DNA of 22,021 nucleotides from a virus. The stretch is from positions 1 to 22,021 of IMG/VR virus record IMGVR_UViG_3300020472_000192, one strand, 5' to 3'. The notes beneath the pieces are model-generated. The model searched no databases. It saw only the letters and a list, made by a program, of their open reading frames with translations, and was not told the DNA's origin. The position numbers were made by a program, and so were the translations under genes. Positions 4,000-21,470 of this stretch are shown here, piece by piece (position 1 is the stretch's first letter; every line of letters begins with the position of its first letter).

Positions 4000-4644
4000 A
4001 TGCCTTTTCCTACCACTAACGCTACAGAAGAACTACCTGCTATTAATGAAATCCTGGCGTCTTGTGGTCAGGCTCCTGTCACCACCCTCGATCAAACCAA
4101 CCCGGACGTTGCGATTGTATATAATACACTGCTTACAGTGTCACGAGAAGTACAGGCAGAAGGTTGGACTTTTAATACAGAGTCCGATGTAACAAAACAA
4201 ACAGATGCAAATAAAGAATTCACAATACCGAATAATTATCTACAAGTCGATTTAACTCAAAATGCAGCTAACTATAGTAAGAGTGTAGTTAGACGTAAGA
4301 AACCAGGGGAAACACAATCTAAATTGTATGATAAATATCATCATACATTTGAGATCACTTCTGGGGCAGCTGAAGATATCAGATTAGACATCGTCTATCA
4401 TTTTGATTGGATTGATTTACCTATCCCTATTCAAGATTATATTGTTGCTAAAGCAGCAGCTGTTGTATCTAGTAGAATTGTAGGTGATACTAATCTATAC
4501 CAAATACTTCAACAGAAAGAGATGCAAGCTAGATCAGTGGCTTTAGAATATGAAACCACTCAAGGTGATTACACATTCTTCGGACACCCTACTGGTCAGA
4601 ACTATTACAATAGTTATCAACCTTATCAAGCACTTTATAGATAA
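4000..4644 (+). CDS. Tail tubular protein A (T7 gp11-like)
   Basis: This 214-residue protein matches the gatekeeper (adaptor) ring between portal and nozzle in T7-like tails. The N-terminal block LPAINEILASCGQAPVTTLD, followed by NPDVAIVYNTLLTVSREVQ and then EGWTFNTE, corresponds to the conserved opening of the family. A later segment, PIPIQDYIVAKAAAVVSSRIVGD, is also typical. Its length is close to T7 gp11. The ATG lies 11 bases after the T-run of the terminator with no visible Shine-Dalgarno motif, and the stop codon overlaps the start of tail tubular B by one base (TAATG), which implies coupled translation of the two. Confidence 0.92.
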   Translation: MPFPTTNATEELPAINEILASCGQAPVTTLDQTNPDVAIVYNTLLTVSREVQAEGWTFNTESDVTKQTDANKEFTIPNNYLQVDLTQNAANYSKSVVRRKKPGETQSKLYDKYHHTFEITSGAAEDIRLDIVYHFDWIDLPIPIQDYIVAKAAAVVSSRIVGDTNLYQILQQKEMQARSVALEYETTQGDYTFFGHPTGQNYYNSYQPYQALYR

Positions 4645-7600
4645 TGTCAGCAGTAACCCAAACAATACCTACTTATTTAGGTGGTGTTTCAAAACAGATA
4701 GACAGTAAAAAGAAACCAGGTCAAGTAAGAGAATGTTTAAATGCTTACCCTGATCCTACATTAGGATTGATCAAGAGGCCTGGTACTAAATTTATGAAAA
4801 CACTAGCCACTACATCACTAACAGATGCTAAGTGGTTCTACATACACAGAGATGGTGATGAACAGTATATCGGACGCATTAGTAAAGGGCCTCCACATGG
4901 AACTATAGAAATTTGGAATGCTGCTACAGGCGTTGAATGCTTAGTAAATGATTGGAGCTACACCTTAACAGTAGACCCGGCGCTAAATGGTATAAGTGGG
5001 GCTACAAGAATGAGGAACGTACCTACAACTGCTGGATCAGGTCAAGGTACTACTGGTACAGGTATGACAGTTAATATATATGGAGTGACTGGTGGTACAG
5101 TTGATCTAGTTTATGTATGTTCTCCCGGCACAGGATACGTTGTTAATGATGTTTTAAAAGTTACAGCAGCTGATGCTGGTACTACTGGTGATATAGAGTT
5201 CACTATTACAAATGTAGAAGATCATTATTTAAAGCCATCAGGTACTGCAGTAGATAACCCGAGTATTAATTACGACGTACTAACTGTACAAGACACTACA
5301 ATTATTACTAATAAGACAACACCCATCACTGTTGAAACAGCACCTACATATGTTGGCAATAAGAAAGGTACTGTACGGTTAAATTTTGTCAGGTATGGTT
5401 CAAAATATAACGTAAAGATAAACGGTACTGAAACAGCAGATCTCATCACGGTGATGGAGGATTCTGGCAATGCTACTGAGGTTCTGAATGCCGATGATAT
5501 TATGGCTCAATTAGTTACTAATATCAACGCTCTTAATGTATCTAATTTAACTGTAACGGCTTTACCATCTTCTATTGAATTAGAATGTGATTCGCCTTTC
5601 ACTCTTGAAGTAAATGATGATGCTGGTAGCGTTAATTTAGATTCATTTCAAGAGCAAGTTAATGTACTAACTGATTTACCTAATCAATGCGCTCATGACA
5701 GGTTAGTTAAAATCATTAATACGTCAGAATCAGGTACTGCTTACTGGGCGAAATTTAGAACAGAAGCAGGCAGCGGTGCAGGCCCTGGATTCTGGGAGGA
5801 GACAGTTGATCCTAACGTATCTACTGGTCTTCTAAATATTAGTATGCCTCATGAGTTAACTAGTGACATACCTGATGTATTTGATTATATAGGTATTGAC
5901 TGGAAAGATAGATTAGTAGGAGATGATACAACAAACTCACACCCTTCATTTGTTAATACAGAAGATCCTGTAACTATCCAACAAGCCTTCCTATATAATA
6001 CAAGGTTAGGGTTTTTAACTAAAGATAATGTATCTCTTAGTCAAGCACAGGATTGGTATAACTTTTACTATACTTCAGCGTTAACTAGCCTATCTTCAGA
6101 TCCTATTGATCTTAGTTGTTCGAGTATTAGACCAGCTGTATTACATGGTGTGGTGCCTACTGCACAAGGTTTGATTCTATTTAGTAAGAATCAACAGTTC
6201 ATGATGTTTGCTGGATCTGATGGACCTTTAACACCTTCCTCAGCAATCATCCGTTCTATCTCTAACTATGAGATGGATACAAATATAGATCCTGTAGATA
6301 TTGGAACTAACATCAACTTTGTCAGTAAGACACCTAGTTACTCACGTATCTTTGGTATGCAGACACGAGGGTATGAAGAGAGTCCAATCATTCAAGATAT
6401 CAGTAGACAAGTTTCTCAGTGGATACCAGAAACAATAGATACCTTATTCTCTAGTCCACAGAATTCTCTTACTGGTGTTTTTAGTAGACAATCAGACCGG
6501 CTCTATCTATATAGAGTTTATAATGTTGGTGAAGAACAGTTGATGCAGTCTTGGTTTGAATGGAAATTACCAGGAAAGATACAGTACTGCACAATTGATA
6601 ATGATACTATGTGGTTAATTGTATTGGACGGTACTACTACAATATTACTTAAAGCTAGTATCAGTAAATCTACAGCAGAAGATATTGTCGTTACTAATGA
6701 TGGGCAGCAAGTCAATCCGCATATGGATTTGTTCCACAATGCTAGTTCAGTTAAATGTAGAGAAGTAAAATCTATTACGATAGATAATAGCAATAATATG
6801 GGTTATACAGTACCTCCTACAGTAACAATTGAAGCACCGAGTGACCCCGATGGGGTAACAGCTACAGCTACGACTGTCTGGAATGGTACAAGCGTAACTG
6901 GAATAACTATTACAAATGAAGGTAATGGGTATAGAACAGTACCTGCGGTAACTATTGGTGAACAGTGGTTAACTGCAACTACATATCAAGCACAAGCTCA
7001 GGTATTCAATGGGGACCATGTTTATCAAGCAGGAGTAGGTGCACCTGGAACATCGGGTTCAACACCTCCAACACATACAACCGTCGGCTCTCCTGTCTCA
7101 GACGGTAATATAGAGTGGACATGCATGGGTGAACGAGCTAAAGCTACAGCAGAAATTGACTCTGTGGATCATTCTAGATGTTACTTACCTTACAATGACA
7201 TAACAGATCTCAACCCTGTTATTCTTATTAAGGGTTCTGGTGTTACTGAATCAGGTTTCACCATTAATCCTGACAGGTACGTAGATGGTAATGCTGACAC
7301 ATATTTCTCAATACCTAAGTTAAACTTTGCTAATTCAGCTTCAGATGTTTATGTAGGTTATCAGTATAATTTCGATATAGAGTTACCTAAAACATACTAC
7401 ATTAAAAGGAATGAGGCTGTCGATTATTCAGCTAACTTAACTATTGCACGTATGAAGTTTGCAGTAGGAGCGTCAAGCGGTATATCTTTCAAACTTAAGA
7501 GTAAAGGTTATCAAGGTCAATATTATACAGTCACAGGTACAGCTACTTCAAACACTGATGGATGGCCAATCACTTCTGGTTCGCACCTGAAGTCACAGTT

Positions 7601-8024
7601 TACACTTCCATTCCTTCTTAAAGAAGAAAACGGTATTGTAGTTAAAGTAAACGGTGTAAGACAACCAGCTGGTACTGCTTACACATATGAGAACTTCCCA
7701 GCTCCTTATAACAGCTGCATACTTACATTTAATTCAGGTTATGTACCTACAGGGGAAATAGATAATGGTGATAACACAACTACACCTGCACAAACTGTAG
7801 AGATATATACAGACACTTGGTATGATGTACAACCAGTACAAGATGCTAACCAATACTTAGCAGATGACGTCCCAATAGCAGAAGAGAATATGTTTACTAT
7901 TCCAGTACATCAACGTACAGACAATTTCAATCTAAGAGTTTTCAGTAACTCACCATTTCCAGTATCACTTAACTCAATGATGTGGGAAGGACAATATTCA
8001 CCACGTTATTATAGGAGGACTTAA
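4644..8024 (+). CDS. Tail tubular protein B (T7 gp12-like nozzle), enlarged
   Basis: The start (TIPTYLGGVSKQIDSKKKPGQ, then LNAYPDPTLGLIKRPGTKF) is the conserved opening of gp12-type nozzle proteins, and IDDVDIGTNINFVSK-like and QSWFEWKLPGKIQY segments fit the beta-propeller core. At 1126 residues it is well above T7 gp12 (about 794). The extra length includes Gly-Tyr units near residues 137-189 (SPGTGYVVNDVLKV) and 708-765 (MGYTVPPTVTI and NEGNGYRTVPAVTI), and a small module at about 772-830 with the GDHVYQAG...PPTHTTVGSPVSDGNIEWTCMG pattern seen in accessory carbohydrate-binding-like domains of phage tail proteins. These probably decorate the nozzle surface and may help adsorption. That role is inferred. 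Confidence 0.92.
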   Translation: MSAVTQTIPTYLGGVSKQIDSKKKPGQVRECLNAYPDPTLGLIKRPGTKFMKTLATTSLTDAKWFYIHRDGDEQYIGRISKGPPHGTIEIWNAATGVECLVNDWSYTLTVDPALNGISGATRMRNVPTTAGSGQGTTGTGMTVNIYGVTGGTVDLVYVCSPGTGYVVNDVLKVTAADAGTTGDIEFTITNVEDHYLKPSGTAVDNPSINYDVLTVQDTTIITNKTTPITVETAPTYVGNKKGTVRLNFVRYGSKYNVKINGTETADLITVMEDSGNATEVLNADDIMAQLVTNINALNVSNLTVTALPSSIELECDSPFTLEVNDDAGSVNLDSFQEQVNVLTDLPNQCAHDRLVKIINTSESGTAYWAKFRTEAGSGAGPGFWEETVDPNVSTGLLNISMPHELTSDIPDVFDYIGIDWKDRLVGDDTTNSHPSFVNTEDPVTIQQAFLYNTRLGFLTKDNVSLSQAQDWYNFYYTSALTSLSSDPIDLSCSSIRPAVLHGVVPTAQGLILFSKNQQFMMFAGSDGPLTPSSAIIRSISNYEMDTNIDPVDIGTNINFVSKTPSYSRIFGMQTRGYEESPIIQDISRQVSQWIPETIDTLFSSPQNSLTGVFSRQSDRLYLYRVYNVGEEQLMQSWFEWKLPGKIQYCTIDNDTMWLIVLDGTTTILLKASISKSTAEDIVVTNDGQQVNPHMDLFHNASSVKCREVKSITIDNSNNMGYTVPPTVTIEAPSDPDGVTATATTVWNGTSVTGITITNEGNGYRTVPAVTIGEQWLTATTYQAQAQVFNGDHVYQAGVGAPGTSGSTPPTHTTVGSPVSDGNIEWTCMGERAKATAEIDSVDHSRCYLPYNDITDLNPVILIKGSGVTESGFTINPDRYVDGNADTYFSIPKLNFANSASDVYVGYQYNFDIELPKTYYIKRNEAVDYSANLTIARMKFAVGASSGISFKLKSKGYQGQYYTVTGTATSNTDGWPITSGSHLKSQFTLPFLLKEENGIVVKVNGVRQPAGTAYTYENFPAPYNSCILTFNSGYVPTGEIDNGDNTTTPAQTVEIYTDTWYDVQPVQDANQYLADDVPIAEENMFTIPVHQRTDNFNLRVFSNSPFPVSLNSMMWEGQYSPRYYRRT
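8013..8018 (+). promoter_or_regulatory. Strong Shine-Dalgarno site of the gp14-like gene
   Basis: AGGAGG lies nine bases before the ATG at 8028, inside the last codons of tail tubular B. It is the strongest ribosome binding site in the window and fixes the start of the gp14-like gene. Most other starts here have no comparable motif. Confidence 0.85.
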
Positions 8025-9253: not shown

Positions 9254-11842
9254 ATGGCAGCACAATTTCGCTCCTACGGGAGTAAAGGAAGTTTCCGAGG
9301 AAGTATAAAAGTACCTGATAAAGCTGCGGCTAAAAGAGACAGGGACAAAGAATTTATCCAGGAACTTAAAGATCAGAATGTAGCATTAGAAGACCGTGAT
9401 AAAACTCTTATTGCAGCTCTCAATAAAAAGTATGATACTGAAAAGAGTGCAAGAAAGATCGTTGAGGAAACTAGACGCCAAGGCGTTGAAGCAGAAAGAA
9501 AGCAACGTGTATCTAACGCTAAGTTAGCAGCTGACTTTGCTGAGCAGGAAGCTGGAGTACATAGTAGTAATCTACAAGCACTAACTGAACTACTTCCTCA
9601 AGTTGCAGAGTCAATCAATGAAATACAAGAAAAGAGAAAGGCGTATGATGCAGATCAGTCCTTTCAAGCCTTAGAGAAAGCTGGCCTCACTCCAGATCAA
9701 TATAAGGAATTCAAAAGTTCATCTCTAACATCAGATCAGTTTTCAACTAGTACTCAAGCTTGGGCTGTAGCTCTAAAAGAGGCAGGTATAAGCTGGCATC
9801 AATACAATGCCATGATGCAGAGAACTGGCGGTTATGGTTTAGGTTTTGAACGATATGATGTAAGAAAACTTGCCAACAGCTTCACTGCGTTTATAGCAGC
9901 TGAAGGTAATGTTGAAAATGCAGATGGTGTCTCATTTAATGATGCACTAAATTCTACAAGCCTACCTAACAACAGTAGTCGTCAAGGAATCATTGAAGAG
10001 TTTGTTACCAGATTTAAAAATCAATCAGGTCTAAGTAACTACTCACTTCCTTTCCGAGAAGAAACACTTAAGGGTTCATTTGAATCACAAGTGAATACCT
10101 TTAGGAATAAAGCTACCCAAACTATGCTCAAACAGAGCCAAGTTGAAGGTCTGGAGAAAGATAGGCAAACCTTCAAAGGTGAGTTTGAAGCTGGGAATAT
10201 TCAGAATAAGTATGATGACGCAGGTGGAGGAAAGCAAGCACATAGTTTCCTAAAGAATTATATTGATCATGCAGGTCATCTTGTAAAAAATGATCAAATA
10301 GATCCAGATGAATTAGGTCAGCTGTATAACTTAAAAGTAACTAATGCGAATGGCGAGGTAGGTACTTTAAAAGAGTTATATCCTGGATTAGCAAATCAAC
10401 TAGATGAGGCAGTTTACGAGAGAACAGCTGTTGAAAATAGAAGAAGAAACGGTAACTTAACCAGGTCTAGATTAGATAGAGCTGAAGAACTTGAAGGGTT
10501 ATTGGATGGTGTATTTCAACTTCCTCCATCAGAACAAGATGCAGCCCTAAGACGTATCCTAGAAAATAAAAATGTCTCAACATTCGCCAAGCAATCAATC
10601 CAACCATTAGTTGACTCAGCAGATAAAGCAAGGAATACGGAAATACAGAAGTATGCTGAAGAATCTAGAGCACGTGGAGTCCCTATTACTCAATCATTTA
10701 TAGATCAATTTAATCCAAAAGGAAGTTTGAGACGTGAACTACTTAAGGAAGTGAGAGATACTCAAACTGCTGGTAGTAAGGAGCGAGTTACAGCAGCTAA
10801 AAGAGATTTTAAAACAAAAGTTTCTGAACTTACAGGTAAAAAGAGTGAGTTTGATATTGGTCATGCTGATGCTGCTGAAGTAGAACGTTTAATGTTTGCA
10901 GATTATAATAGAAGAGTCCATGCTTATAGAAATACACTCAGCCCAGAAGATGCGCACGTACAAGCAAGGAAAGAAGTTATAGAGGAATTTGAACAAGGTA
11001 CAGATCCAGATAATCCTAGAGGACCATATAAATATATTGAAAATGATCAGAATCCAAATGAAAGCCGTTTTGAATATATTTCATCTGAAGCTACTCCAGT
11101 TAAACCAATTAAGCTTGCTCAAACATATAGAGATAGGGGAGAAGACATAGTACATACACCTGAAGCTATATTTAAAAGTAATTCAATGCAGAGATGGACA
11201 CTGCCGGGTAATGTGCAGCAACATGAATGGTCTAGAGCAGATCAAATTGCAAAGTTAACTACAGCAAACGACACAGCCGCAATGGTGATGAAGTATCAAA
11301 TGGAAGCAGCAAATGTAAATGTACCGCAGTGGCTTAATGATACGGTAGCTGCTCAGGAACAGTTAATACAAACAAATTATGATAATAGACGAATCATCAG
11401 TGAATCTATAAAACAAGGGGCTAATATAGATGTACTCAAAACAGCAGCTATTGGTAATACAACAAGTATAGGTGGTATTACAAAGATACTTGGCCCATGG
11501 CAGTTAGGCTTTAATGATCTTCCAGACGGGAGTCACAGTAGTGCTGGTAATGCTCACTTTGATGTTGAATTTAGATCTAGAGAGTTAGCAGCTTTTGTTG
11601 GTCGGTACTTATTAGATAGAGGTATCAACGCAAGAGAACACCCTGATTTACCTGGAGGTGTTCAAGGGAGTCATGCACGTTATGCTAGATCTCATTACAA
11701 CGGTTTTAAGATTGATATCGGGTTCGCTGGATCTGGTTCAACTGGCGAGATAGGTACAGAAGCTGATAAGGCTTTTGCAGAAAAGGTTATTAATTTAATG
11801 AGAGAAGCATCTAATGCATACTATGGAGGATCTTATATATAA
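9254..11842 (+). CDS. Internal virion protein (T7 gp15 position) with possible hydrolase-like C-terminus
   Basis: This 862-residue protein occupies the T7 gp15 slot. Residues 1 to about 720 are charged and mostly helical (for example RDRDKEFIQELKDQNVALED), as expected of the ejected tube protein that spans the periplasm. The last 130 or so residues differ: they contain GNAHFDVEF (His768, Asp770) and HARYARSHYNGFKIDIG, in which His814-x-x-Gly-x-x-x-Asp821 fits the HxxGxxxD zinc-ligand pattern of M15-type D-Ala-D-Ala peptidases. The usual second E-x-W-H motif is not apparent, so the domain may be related but distinct, or inactive. A 53-base A/C-rich gap without a Shine-Dalgarno motif precedes the start. 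The gene overlaps the next by one base. Confidence 0.82.
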   Translation: MAAQFRSYGSKGSFRGSIKVPDKAAAKRDRDKEFIQELKDQNVALEDRDKTLIAALNKKYDTEKSARKIVEETRRQGVEAERKQRVSNAKLAADFAEQEAGVHSSNLQALTELLPQVAESINEIQEKRKAYDADQSFQALEKAGLTPDQYKEFKSSSLTSDQFSTSTQAWAVALKEAGISWHQYNAMMQRTGGYGLGFERYDVRKLANSFTAFIAAEGNVENADGVSFNDALNSTSLPNNSSRQGIIEEFVTRFKNQSGLSNYSLPFREETLKGSFESQVNTFRNKATQTMLKQSQVEGLEKDRQTFKGEFEAGNIQNKYDDAGGGKQAHSFLKNYIDHAGHLVKNDQIDPDELGQLYNLKVTNANGEVGTLKELYPGLANQLDEAVYERTAVENRRRNGNLTRSRLDRAEELEGLLDGVFQLPPSEQDAALRRILENKNVSTFAKQSIQPLVDSADKARNTEIQKYAEESRARGVPITQSFIDQFNPKGSLRRELLKEVRDTQTAGSKERVTAAKRDFKTKVSELTGKKSEFDIGHADAAEVERLMFADYNRRVHAYRNTLSPEDAHVQARKEVIEEFEQGTDPDNPRGPYKYIENDQNPNESRFEYISSEATPVKPIKLAQTYRDRGEDIVHTPEAIFKSNSMQRWTLPGNVQQHEWSRADQIAKLTTANDTAAMVMKYQMEAANVNVPQWLNDTVAAQEQLIQTNYDNRRIISESIKQGANIDVLKTAAIGNTTSIGGITKILGPWQLGFNDLPDGSHSSAGNAHFDVEFRSRELAAFVGRYLLDRGINAREHPDLPGGVQGSHARYARSHYNGFKIDIGFAGSGSTGEIGTEADKAFAEKVINLMREASNAYYGGSYI

Positions 11843-16181: not shown

Positions 16182-18227
16182 ATGGCAGTCACTTCAAATA
16201 CAATGACTGGGATAGATGGGAGCAAAGTAGCGTTCCCATTTACTTTCCCCTACCAAAATATAACAGATATAAAAGTTGAACTTACTAGATCTCCAGTTGA
16301 AGCTAACACAACTGGAAGTACAACGTTTACAACTTTAGATCATACAAAATTCAAACTTGCCCCAGACGCTGTAACTGTCACCCTCTCAGCAATAGATACA
16401 CCAACAGATTTCCAAGAAACTAGTGGCGCTCCAAAAAATGTCACCGGCACTGGAAATACTGACTTCGTAGTAAGTGGTAAGGTATATAGAGATACAGATT
16501 CATCTCAATTAACTGCAACCTTCTACCCAGGTTCAGCTATCAGATCATCTGACTTAAATAATAACTTCACTCAAAACTTATTTGTAACACAAGAATCGGA
16601 GAAAGAGGTTGAAGATAATAAGACAGCTGTCGACCGCCTTGTTGGATTTACAACTGATGATGGCGCTACTTGGGTCACAACAGGTGGTAATACAAATGCT
16701 AGTACAGATCCTAAGGGCCTAAGATATGGTATTAACACAGCAGATGCAGCTTCAGCTACAGCAACTGACGCTAAGGATAACTACGCTATACCTGCTAAAA
16801 CAGCTACTGATACCTACGTACATGATGGCACTAATCTCCAAGGCGGTGGTCCTGATGACGGTCAACCGAAAGGTGTTAAATATACAGTTGATCTAGTTGA
16901 AACATATGTAGCAGATAGTACTGGACTAAAGGGTGATGGGCAAGGAGGAAATCCTCAAGGTGTTAAGTATGCAGTTGCCAAAGTTGATGACTGGATTATC
17001 AACGGTGACGGTCAAGGCACTAATGAACAGGGCGTCCCTTATGCAGTAGATCTATCAGAGGAAGCACTGAGTAACTCTAGAGATGAAACTGCTAGCCAAC
17101 CTTATCCAAAGGCTATCGATCTCGCTAAGACTGCAGAGCAGAACTCCTCTACCGCATTAAGTAATTCTAGAGATGAAACTGTTAATCCACCCGTATCCGC
17201 TATTTCTAGAGCTACAGATGCAGCTGCAGATGCTGCTACAGCGTTAAGTAACTCTAGAGATGAAACTGCTAGCCAACCTTACCCAAGTGCTATTAGTATC
17301 GCTAAGGATGCTGCAGTAGATGCTTCAGAAGCACTGAGTAACTCTAGAGATGAAACTGCTAGCACACCTTATCCAAGTGCTATCAGTATCGCGCAAGATG
17401 CTAAAGATGCTACAGATACTTATGTACATGATGGAACCTCACTACAAGGTGATGGTGTAGGATCCAACCCTAAAGGTGTTAAGTATGCTATCGATCAGGT
17501 TGAACTGTATGTAGCAGATTCAAATGGATTAAGGGGTGACGGTACTGATCCCGTAACTGATCCTCAAGGTGTTAAATATGCTGTAAGACTTGCAAATGAA
17601 GCATCAGCTTCAGTAGCTGCTTCAGCTATTTATAAAGTGGTAGATGACTTAGCTACACTAGCGACTGATTACCCATTAACTGGTAATCAACCTTCACCAC
17701 CAGGACCAGATCCTAATAATCTAGCACCTACTCCAGATGGAACTTTTGTGCAGATTACTGATAGTACAGGAATCTCATTATCAAACACCGTTTGGACTAC
17801 TACTAACGGAGTAGTCTTCTCAGATGCTGGTAGTTTCCCTAGTGGTTTCGATGGTCATAGTCAATTAACTCTCAGAGTAAAGGTAAGTAATTCAACTGCA
17901 GGTTCGGAGTCTTATATTGCCCAAGAGTATTACGCTAATGATCCTGAATCTAGATACGGTGAAGATAGGAAAATAATTGTTGAGCATGATCAGGTAATCG
18001 ATGCTAACTACACAATACAGCTAGATAAGAATGCTCATTCAGTGTCTGGTGGCTTAGTATTTAATAATAGTACTAATAAATACGATGGGCCTGTAACTAT
18101 TGCTCACAATGGAACAGATCTAACATACAATCCTGAAAATCACGCACAACCTTATGTAGCTACAAATGCTGCAACCGCAGGTAATACTGTAACAATCCCT
18201 GTAAACTCAACTTGGTTAATCTCTTAA
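16182..18227 (+). CDS. Tail fibre with T7 gp17-type N-terminus and repeat shaft
   Basis: Residues 1 to about 150 match the T7 gp17 N-terminal domain that attaches the fibre to the nozzle: DGSKVAFPFTFPYQNITDIKV, TTLDHTKFKL, and YPGSAIRSSDLNNNFTQNLF. Residues about 210-470 form a shaft built of two repeat families: units of about 28 residues (YVHDGT-LQG...GVKYAV and YVADS-GL-GDG...GVKYAV) on both sides of four units of about 30 residues starting ALSNSRDET. The C-terminal 200 residues (from PPGPDPNN on) are beta-rich and end VTIPVNSTWLIS, with no homology that I recognise. It binds the host receptor directly or carries the distal fibre encoded next. At 681 residues it is longer than T7 gp17. The next gene starts one base after the stop. 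Confidence 0.9.
   Translation: MAVTSNTMTGIDGSKVAFPFTFPYQNITDIKVELTRSPVEANTTGSTTFTTLDHTKFKLAPDAVTVTLSAIDTPTDFQETSGAPKNVTGTGNTDFVVSGKVYRDTDSSQLTATFYPGSAIRSSDLNNNFTQNLFVTQESEKEVEDNKTAVDRLVGFTTDDGATWVTTGGNTNASTDPKGLRYGINTADAASATATDAKDNYAIPAKTATDTYVHDGTNLQGGGPDDGQPKGVKYTVDLVETYVADSTGLKGDGQGGNPQGVKYAVAKVDDWIINGDGQGTNEQGVPYAVDLSEEALSNSRDETASQPYPKAIDLAKTAEQNSSTALSNSRDETVNPPVSAISRATDAAADAATALSNSRDETASQPYPSAISIAKDAAVDASEALSNSRDETASTPYPSAISIAQDAKDATDTYVHDGTSLQGDGVGSNPKGVKYAIDQVELYVADSNGLRGDGTDPVTDPQGVKYAVRLANEASASVAASAIYKVVDDLATLATDYPLTGNQPSPPGPDPNNLAPTPDGTFVQITDSTGISLSNTVWTTTNGVVFSDAGSFPSGFDGHSQLTLRVKVSNSTAGSESYIAQEYYANDPESRYGEDRKIIVEHDQVIDANYTIQLDKNAHSVSGGLVFNNSTNKYDGPVTIAHNGTDLTYNPENHAQPYVATNAATAGNTVTIPVNSTWLIS
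16809..16976 (+). repeat. Fibre repeat B, first block
   Basis: This block encodes two related half-units of about 28 residues: TYVHDGTNLQGGG to KGVKYTV, then TYVADSTGLKGDG to QGVKYAV. A shorter, more diverged copy (WIINGDGQGTNEQGVPYAV) follows up to about 17048. A second block with the same two halves lies at 17415-17585, beyond the A repeats. The units probably form successive segments of the trimeric fibre shaft. Confidence 0.75.
17064..17417 (+). repeat. Four tandem fibre repeats A (about 90 bp each)
   Basis: Units start at 17064, 17154, 17241 and 17331, with spacings of 90, 87 and 90 bases. Each encodes ALSNSRDET, a variable Pro-rich linker (ASQPYPSAIS-type) and an Ala/Asp-rich helix. 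The bases around AACTCTAGAGATGAAACTGC are identical in units 1, 3 and 4, which points to recent duplication or ongoing recombination between units. Unit 2 is one codon shorter and the most diverged. Confidence 0.88.
17415..17585 (+). repeat. Fibre repeat B, second block
   Basis: This repeats the order of the first B block: TYVHDGTSLQGDG to KGVKYAI, then LYVADSNGLRGDG to QGVKYAV. Its length is 171 bases against 168 for the first block, so the two are nearly in register. With the A units in between, the fibre shaft has a B-A-A-A-A-B plan. Confidence 0.75.
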
Positions 18228-21005: not shown

Positions 21006-21470
21006 ATGGTCGAACCTCCTATCTTCCCTTCCATCAATCTTCCAGGTCAAGTTATACCTGAACCACCAATACTTCCTGAGCCTATCCTAGCTGTCCCTAC
21101 AGCAGACGTTCCAGCATATAAACCTATGGTTGCTCCTCCAGAACTTTTAAGCCCCCCTGTAGGCGTTCCTAGAGAGGGTGAGGAAGAGGTGAAAGAAGAG
21201 CCAGAGGGGCAGAAGGAAAACCCTTTACCAGAAGTGCGGAAGATAAATATACCTTGGACAGATGTAGAGATACCAGTTCCAAGGGAGGAGATTGTAGCGA
21301 CTGCGGCAACTACTGCTGCAGTCTCTGTAGTCGCCACCCTGACTGCTACTTCTATGTTTAATTATTTAGTTAAAATATTAAAACCTGTATTTATGCAGGC
21401 AGTAAAACGTATTCAGAAGAAACTTGGAAAAGACGGAAAACCCACCGAAGGGATTACTGAACAAAATTAA
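21006..21470 (+). CDS. Proline-rich protein with C-terminal membrane span
   Basis: This 154-residue protein has a Pro/Glu-rich N-terminal half (repeated PEPPILPEP- and PPELLSPP-like runs, residues 1-75), then INIPWTDVEIPVPREEIVA, an Ala/Thr/Val-rich hydrophobic span (TAATTAAVSVVATLTATSMF, about 98-118), and a basic C-terminal helix (LVKILKPVFMQAVKRIQKK). I recall similar proteins of unknown function in marine cyanophages. The layout, a stiff proline-rich arm joined to one membrane helix, recalls envelope-spanning lysis proteins in general form only. ATG 21006 was chosen; another ATG at 21002 opens a different, short frame. The last 47 bases overlap the next gene. Confidence 0.7.
   Translation: MVEPPIFPSINLPGQVIPEPPILPEPILAVPTADVPAYKPMVAPPELLSPPVGVPREGEEEVKEEPEGQKENPLPEVRKINIPWTDVEIPVPREEIVATAATTAAVSVVATLTATSMFNYLVKILKPVFMQAVKRIQKKLGKDGKPTEGITEQN

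Follow-up and report, generated by a model that had tools for sequence, protein, structure and literature searches.

A candidate circularly permuted LAS-type domain at the C-terminus of the gp15-position ejection protein of an apparently cyanophage-like virus

The LAS superfamily (lysostaphin, D-Ala-D-Ala peptidase, Sonic hedgehog) includes VanX as well as Hedgehog, an animal signal protein. The metal ligands of Sonic hedgehog (Shh) are given as H141, D148 and H183, with H-x6-D preceding H-x-H, in the available sections of PMC6027127, and H181 is described as not being a metal ligand in those of PMC4102407; for ChiX, the ligand order is H68, D75 and H123 (excerpt of PMC5778951). In such excerpts, H-x6-D plus H-x-H appears as the signature of Hh/DD-peptidases, and a wall peptidase role, used by phages, is ascribed to the M15/LAS L-Ala-D-Glu endopeptidases (further background in parts of PMC8954989, PMC11440229, PMC3927764, PMC9860041 and PMC7824862). 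For T7, the available portions of the literature describe gp15 as forming a periplasmic tunnel and the N-terminal transglycosylase of gp16 as cutting the wall. According to the accessible part of a review, the hydrolase can swap to gp15, as in K1E and K1-5, and a partly accessible source describes the gp15 equivalent of PhiM1 as having a lysozyme-like domain.

The window, i.e. the whole stretch of DNA that we analysed, comprises positions 1-22,021 (22,021 bases) of the virus record IMGVR_UViG_3300020472_000192, and the virus appears to be cyanophage-like. Its genes stand in a T7-like order of tail adaptor, nozzle, gp14-, gp15- and gp16-position proteins and tail fibres (Table 1), where the names gp15 and gp16 rest on position and size. 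A relative of gp16 is present in 57 phage records, 51 of which are named Synechococcus, Cyanophage or Prochlorococcus phage, and the best relative among them, with 44% identity, belongs to Synechococcus phage S-CBP3, whose gp16-position gene (L003:8779-12593) is annotated in KC310803 as two CDSs of 1170 and 2592 bases. The tail-fibre-like protein encoded at 16182-18227 has repeated DGTSLQGDG..PKGVKYAIDQVE units, and similar repeats occur in locus L002. At 21006-21470, the window encodes a 154-residue Pro-rich protein with a hydrophobic C-terminal stretch and without a convincing Pfam family, to which L002 11365-11829 is strongly alike.

Table 1 Features of the window and of related loci (window coordinates unless a locus is given).
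Feature	Position	Strand	Basis
Tail adaptor			PF17212, E 1.4e-33
Tail nozzle (gp12-type)	4644..8024	+	PF25675, E 1.6e-162
gp14-position protein, 390 aa	8028..9200	+	PF24072 (T7_gp14), E 0.0011 (under cut-off); phrog_20153, E 5e-35
gp15-position ejection protein, 862 aa	9254..11842	+	Position by synteny; body homologous to L139, L145, L144, L002, L141
Candidate permuted LAS/Hedgehog-like domain, residues ~745-848	11486..11797	+	HMM, pairwise z, phmmer, AF2, BFVD
NAHFDVEF (766-773), equivalent of the family NYHxHIAF strand	11549..11572	+	Second His replaced by D770; model strand 27-31
HYNGFKID (814-821), H-x6-D motif	11693..11716	+	Model strand 78-82
gp16-position ejection protein, 1444 aa	11842..16176	+	phrog_6651 internal virion protein, E 7e-230
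Permuted M23-like domains, gp15 C-termini	L137:3039-3488, L004:2775-3179, L005:4029-4433, L139:3593-4012		Motif order

An earlier note on this DNA had stated that the gp16-position protein shows no transglycosylase motif, and had named a hidden hydrolase domain in its 1444 residues as an observation that would speak against a relocated activity. As far as tested, the statement holds and no such hydrolase was found: at E<=1, the protein (P0002) matched no Pfam family, SLT and lysozyme domains included, and no wall enzyme among the PDB sequences, where phmmer returned only unrelated chains at E-values of at least 0.34. Since no hydrolase was found in gp16, the C-terminus of gp15 is the most likely wall-acting part. 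The HxxGxxxD at 814-821 and the nearby His768/Asp770, to which the note had drawn attention in this region, are indeed present, with H768, D770, H814, G817 and D821 all in place, and H-x6-D occurs a single time in the 862-residue protein, at 814. Direct searches of Pfam, PHROGs, phage records and viral contigs with gp15 or its C-terminus gave no relative above chance, the domain itself had no match in Pfam or PHROGs, and no curated LAS family matched it above the cut-off.

In S-CBP3, the gp15-position protein ends in NYHEHI...HSRDSYHYYGQAFDV, which is preceded by an SLT domain, and this terminal domain was the starting point for collecting a phage-virion family without a Pfam model, which we define here by the signature N-x-H-x-H, helix, H-x6-D (NxHxH...Hx6D family). 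The first step of the collection gave 36 viral loci out of 41 stretches, the second gave 272 out of 293 (80 were kept), and the family loci yielded 126 domain hits and 88 unique domains; in bacterial genomes, none of 96 pattern-matching stretches was confirmed. The window domain is identical to that of L125 at 31 of 97 aligned residues (z 10.8), and its z-scores against L110, L111 and L117 are 10.3, 9.1 and 8.6 (5,000 shuffles each), these four having been chosen as the best of 43 members, of which only 14 show a similarity to the window reached by at most 1% of shuffles. Five other gp15 stretches, used as controls, gave median z-scores of -0.24 to 0.73. In a plain phmmer search of 20,823 ORFs, all 16 non-self matches at E<=1 were family members (best E 3e-4). 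Shuffled sequences did as well as the window in 3 of 1,000 cases against the S-CBP3 domain and in 147 of 1,000 against that of S28-C3. A first family HMM, built from 15 members, missed the window, which was found only with diverse members; the later HMM matched the window domain at 761-848 with an i-E of 0.017, and none of 20,000 shuffles reached 14.1 bits. On full ORFs, six other ORFs scored 9.9-11.9 bits with this HMM and the full window frame 9.1 bits; we take the six for chance, and because these non-family ORFs stand above the window frame, the case is not rested on the later HMM. Significant similarity extends across the whole domain, and the N, the first H and the H-x6-D are invariant including the window, so that the window domain is, on these comparisons, very probably a divergent homologue of the NxHxH...Hx6D family.

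When the window is aligned with 43 family members (44 rows), N766, H768, H814 and D821 are identical in all rows, and G817 varies within the family. Two near-invariant residues that do not define membership are absent from the window: the second His of H-x-H and the Asp of a TGD motif, each found in 43 of the 44 rows, are D770 and P748 there. As the alignment runs without gaps from H768 to the G-I pair, D770 corresponds to the second His, and as His is missing downstream of the motif Asp in 39 of the 44 rows, a second His ligand must lie upstream. The order of the motifs, with H-x-H (H-x-D in the window) ahead of H-x6-D, is thus the reverse of the usual LAS order, a point that the earlier note had overlooked. 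A circular permutation in which the last LAS strand is shifted to the front would leave such an order. Based on motif order and partial alignments, we consider it rather likely that the family site is a circularly permuted LAS-type metal site, and because of the reversed order we describe the domain as one that would work like LAS, in permuted form, and do not file it as a canonical LAS member.

A likeness to Hedgehog emerged from comparison of the family profile with PDB sequences. With the profile built without the window, 23 of the 25 matches listed were Hedgehogs (E 0.0062-0.19) and the first unrelated match appeared at E 0.75; with the window included, the best Hedgehog reached E 7.5e-4. 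All matches at E<0.2 were Hedgehog chains, aligned with the H-x6-D half, and the matching region, a helix end plus H-x-x-x-S-x-H-Y-x-G-x-A-x-D, covers only about 40 residues. Among 20 members searched against Pfam at E<=1, three matched HH_signal (best E 0.0071) and one matched Peptidase_M15_3 (PF08291, E 0.15).

An AF2 model of the window domain based on a 43-row alignment had a mean pLDDT of 78.5 and a pTM of 0.76, with strands at HFDVE and KIDIG and helices between and after them; a single-sequence model of residues 670-862 (pLDDT 52.8) was discarded. In BFVD, the top three matches of the model were the family proteins of S-SKS1 (probability 1.00), S-CBP3 (1.00) and S28-C3 (0.97), followed by nothing clear; S28-C3 is absent from the alignment used for the model, and near relatives of S-SKS1 and S-CBP3 are included in it. 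The PDB fold searches (Foldseek, VIA) had no LAS chain among the matches listed, and their best rows were Pcc1 chains (VIA Z 6.7) and parts of transaminases, all with Z <8, the value for Pcc1 being within the range reached by unrelated models. A permuted topology could explain the missing LAS chains, without proving a permutation.

The surroundings of the domain in other phages point to the cell wall. In 92 segments of at most 300 residues ahead of the domain, Pfam detected Phage_lysozyme2 (17), SLT (13), SLT_3 (10), Glucosaminidase (3), Hydrolase_2 (3) and Phage_lysozyme (2), with overlaps kept in the counts, which indicates that virion proteins often combine the domain with glycan-cutting ones; no glycosidase partner was found in the window copy. 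After position 5902 of L105, the domain is succeeded by a stretch (GIASWYGPGFYGNKTANGE) that resembles an RlpA/DPBB domain. At the C-termini of gp15-position proteins in phages with a gp16 relative, we found glucosaminidase plus M23 in S-SRP01, SLT plus M23 in S-CBP4, glucosaminidase in DSL-LC07 and S-CBP1, the family domain in S-CBP3 (after SLT) and S28-C3, Hydrolase_2-like sequences in S45-C4 (at the cut-off) and S-B28 (under it), tail-lysozyme-like sequences under the cut-off in Syn5 and P60, and a lysozyme-like pattern without a Pfam match in S-TIP37. No domain was seen there in P-SSP7, P-SSP3, P-GSP1, NATL2A-133 and CRP-227, and S-RIP1 was omitted from the gp15 tree and table, as the gene read did not adjoin gp16. 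Wall opening by a gp15-type protein, as the earlier note had envisaged, agrees with hydrolases at the same place in relatives, the relocation as such being already published.

Mapped onto a 78-row tree of gp16, the domain labels require 17 changes, compared to a minimum of 7 and a shuffle average of 34.1; 42 of the rows are 'none seen', a class that is based on simple patterns and Pfam labels and in which hydrolases may therefore have gone unnoticed, and for the outer rows FastTree issued a warning about long branches. The clearest case is the clade of six rows (support 100) that unites the window with its five nearest gp16 relatives, with different occupants of the slot: M23 in L144 (Pfam, 4e-24), under cut-off also in L141 (3e-6) and L145 (1e-3), a permuted M23-like domain in L139, LAS-like motifs only in L002, and the family domain in the window. 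The gp16 proteins of window and L145 are 82% identical, and the gp15 body of the window aligns with those of its five relatives over stretches from 1-387 up to 1-803 at 25-41% identity (41% over 1-803 for L139), whereas its last 160 residues gave no match at E<=1 to any of these relatives. The slot has thus been exchanged and the gp15 body retained. The gp15 C-terminus of L002 (L002:2317-2775) contains SNHRADIGSGAIDL and HHWHIE and is LAS-like by motif; it has no Pfam match, does not resemble the window domain (z 0.26) and was therefore rejected as an intermediate of the permutation. In a BLAST alignment, GSHSSAGNAHFDV (window 11531-11563) resembles GSGASTGAHLDV at about residues 757-769 of L139 gp15, a stretch too short to use.

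A second type of seemingly permuted domain occupies the same slot. In the C-termini of P60, DSL-LC07, S-CBP1 and L139, STG-[PA]-HLDV stands ahead of G-[IVF]-D, and a profile of these M23-like domains matches two PDB M23 chains, 5kqb and 5kvp, at weak E-values of 0.047 and 0.078. In both, the match falls into two segments whose order is exchanged; in 5kqb, profile positions 73-106 align with chain residues 13-53 and positions 16-37 with residues 98-119. The M23 motif is H-x-H, and at this position all four domains have H-L-D, the window having H-F-D. As the four are all alike in this respect, H-x-D may be a working site. In view of the short BLAST resemblance to L139, the H-x-D of the window might have been acquired by recombination with a permuted M23 neighbour. 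The window domain as a permuted M23 was rejected, its H-x6-D spacing and the helix after the first strand fitting the Hedgehog-like family.

Our main reading, to which we give a probability of about 0.55, is that the gp15-position protein bears a C-terminal, circularly permuted LAS-type metal-site domain of ~105 residues, which is carried in the virion and replaces the T7 gp16 transglycosylase. Family homology, motif order, the Hedgehog-like half, the fusions to glycan hydrolases elsewhere and the slot swapping within the clade are shown by the comparisons; from these, we infer permuted fold, metal binding, catalysis and timing as parts of the best explanation. In such a mechanism, the gp15-position protein would leave the capsid together with the ejection proteins and form the periplasmic tunnel, and its C-terminal domain would cleave the host peptidoglycan at peptide stems or cross-links via metal-bound water, letting the tunnel pass in place of the T7 transglycosylase. 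In the window copy, H814 and D821 might hold the metal together with D770 (in place of a His), H768 or both. That the family as a whole acts on the wall is likely; for the window copy, putative catalysis has an even chance. The peptidase-type domain suspected by the earlier note thus stands as LAS-type metallopeptidase-like by family homology and motifs, and is qualified by the altered D770 and P748.

These two replacements, at positions conserved in all other rows, also speak for a degenerate window copy, whose LAS-type fold would persist to bind peptidoglycan or to position the tunnel without cutting, another virion or host activity opening the wall. The missing glycosidase partner and the M23-like domains of L145 and L141, likewise weak, would fit this, and inactive LytM-type LAS proteins are known (excerpt of PMC8416486). 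On the other hand, N766, H768, H814 and D821 are retained, and the H-L-D of the four permuted M23-like domains makes a functional H-x-D possible; we regard a degenerate copy as less likely than our main reading. That the domain is a phage-specific non-LAS alpha/beta fold, in which the resemblance to Hedgehog is convergence round a short H-x6-D and the His and Asp serve another chemistry or the structure, seems quite improbable to us: the PDB fold searches with their Pcc1 rows and the shortness of the Hedgehog alignment are in its favour, but it leaves aside that every PDB sequence match under E 0.2 is a Hedgehog, that the motif pair is the published Hh/DD-peptidase signature (in the excerpts cited above), and that the family is fused to peptidoglycan glycosidases. 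An ordinary spacer or tunnel-tip region with a coincidental motif would agree with the lack of Pfam and PHROG matches and is hardly credible in view of a family homology beyond chance and the invariant His and Asp.

More tentatively, the permuted LAS-type reading can be extended to a viral family of permuted Hedgehog/LAS zinc peptidases that are part of the virion, often go together with a muramidase and sit in a C-terminal recombination slot of gp15 in cyanopodovirus ejectosomes; as the slot also holds permuted M23 domains, permutation of the LAS site would then have happened two or more times, and H-x-D would be an altered metal site used by both kinds in the clade. Searches of an open-access library turned up no publication that describes a permuted Hedgehog/LAS or M23 domain; next to the published relocation of the hydrolase to gp15, the permuted family and the swapping at clade level look new. 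If true, this would account for host-wall opening in these podoviruses without the T7 gp16 transglycosylase, and the LAS superfamily (lysostaphin, VanX, Hedgehog) would gain a permuted branch. It would also mean that phages whose gp16 proteins are still ~80% identical trade the wall-cutting end of an ejection protein, an exchange that is testable as adaptation to host walls.

Compared to known systems, the phage family shares with the Hedgehog N-terminal domain (HH_signal, PF01085) and the bacterial Hh-DD-peptidases the H-x6-D and H-x-H motifs and a half, G-[IV]-K plus H-S-x-x-S-[LY]-H-Y-x-G-x-A-x-D, that is aligned by profile, but its motif order is reversed, it has only about 100 residues, and the window has H-x-D. 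With the M15/LAS L-Ala-D-Glu endopeptidases (ChiX, Ply500, YcbK), it has H-x6-D and a further His in common; these enzymes have the canonical order, and PF08291 is matched by only the one member mentioned above. The T7 gp16 transglycosylase domain resembles the window domain in wall opening by an ejection protein, as proposed for the window, and differs in that it sits on another protein, at another end, with another chemistry. The gp15-position proteins of S-CBP3 (AGK86606.1, phrog_24152) and S28-C3 also carry the domain at the C-terminus and at the same operon position, that of S-CBP3, annotated as hypothetical, with SLT ahead of it and N-Y-H-E-H in place of the window's motif. The gp15-type proteins of K1E and K1-5 and the octameric ejection protein of PhiM1, finally, likewise have the wall hydrolase on a gp15-type protein and not on gp16, but theirs are lysozyme-like and not LAS-type metallo-domains.
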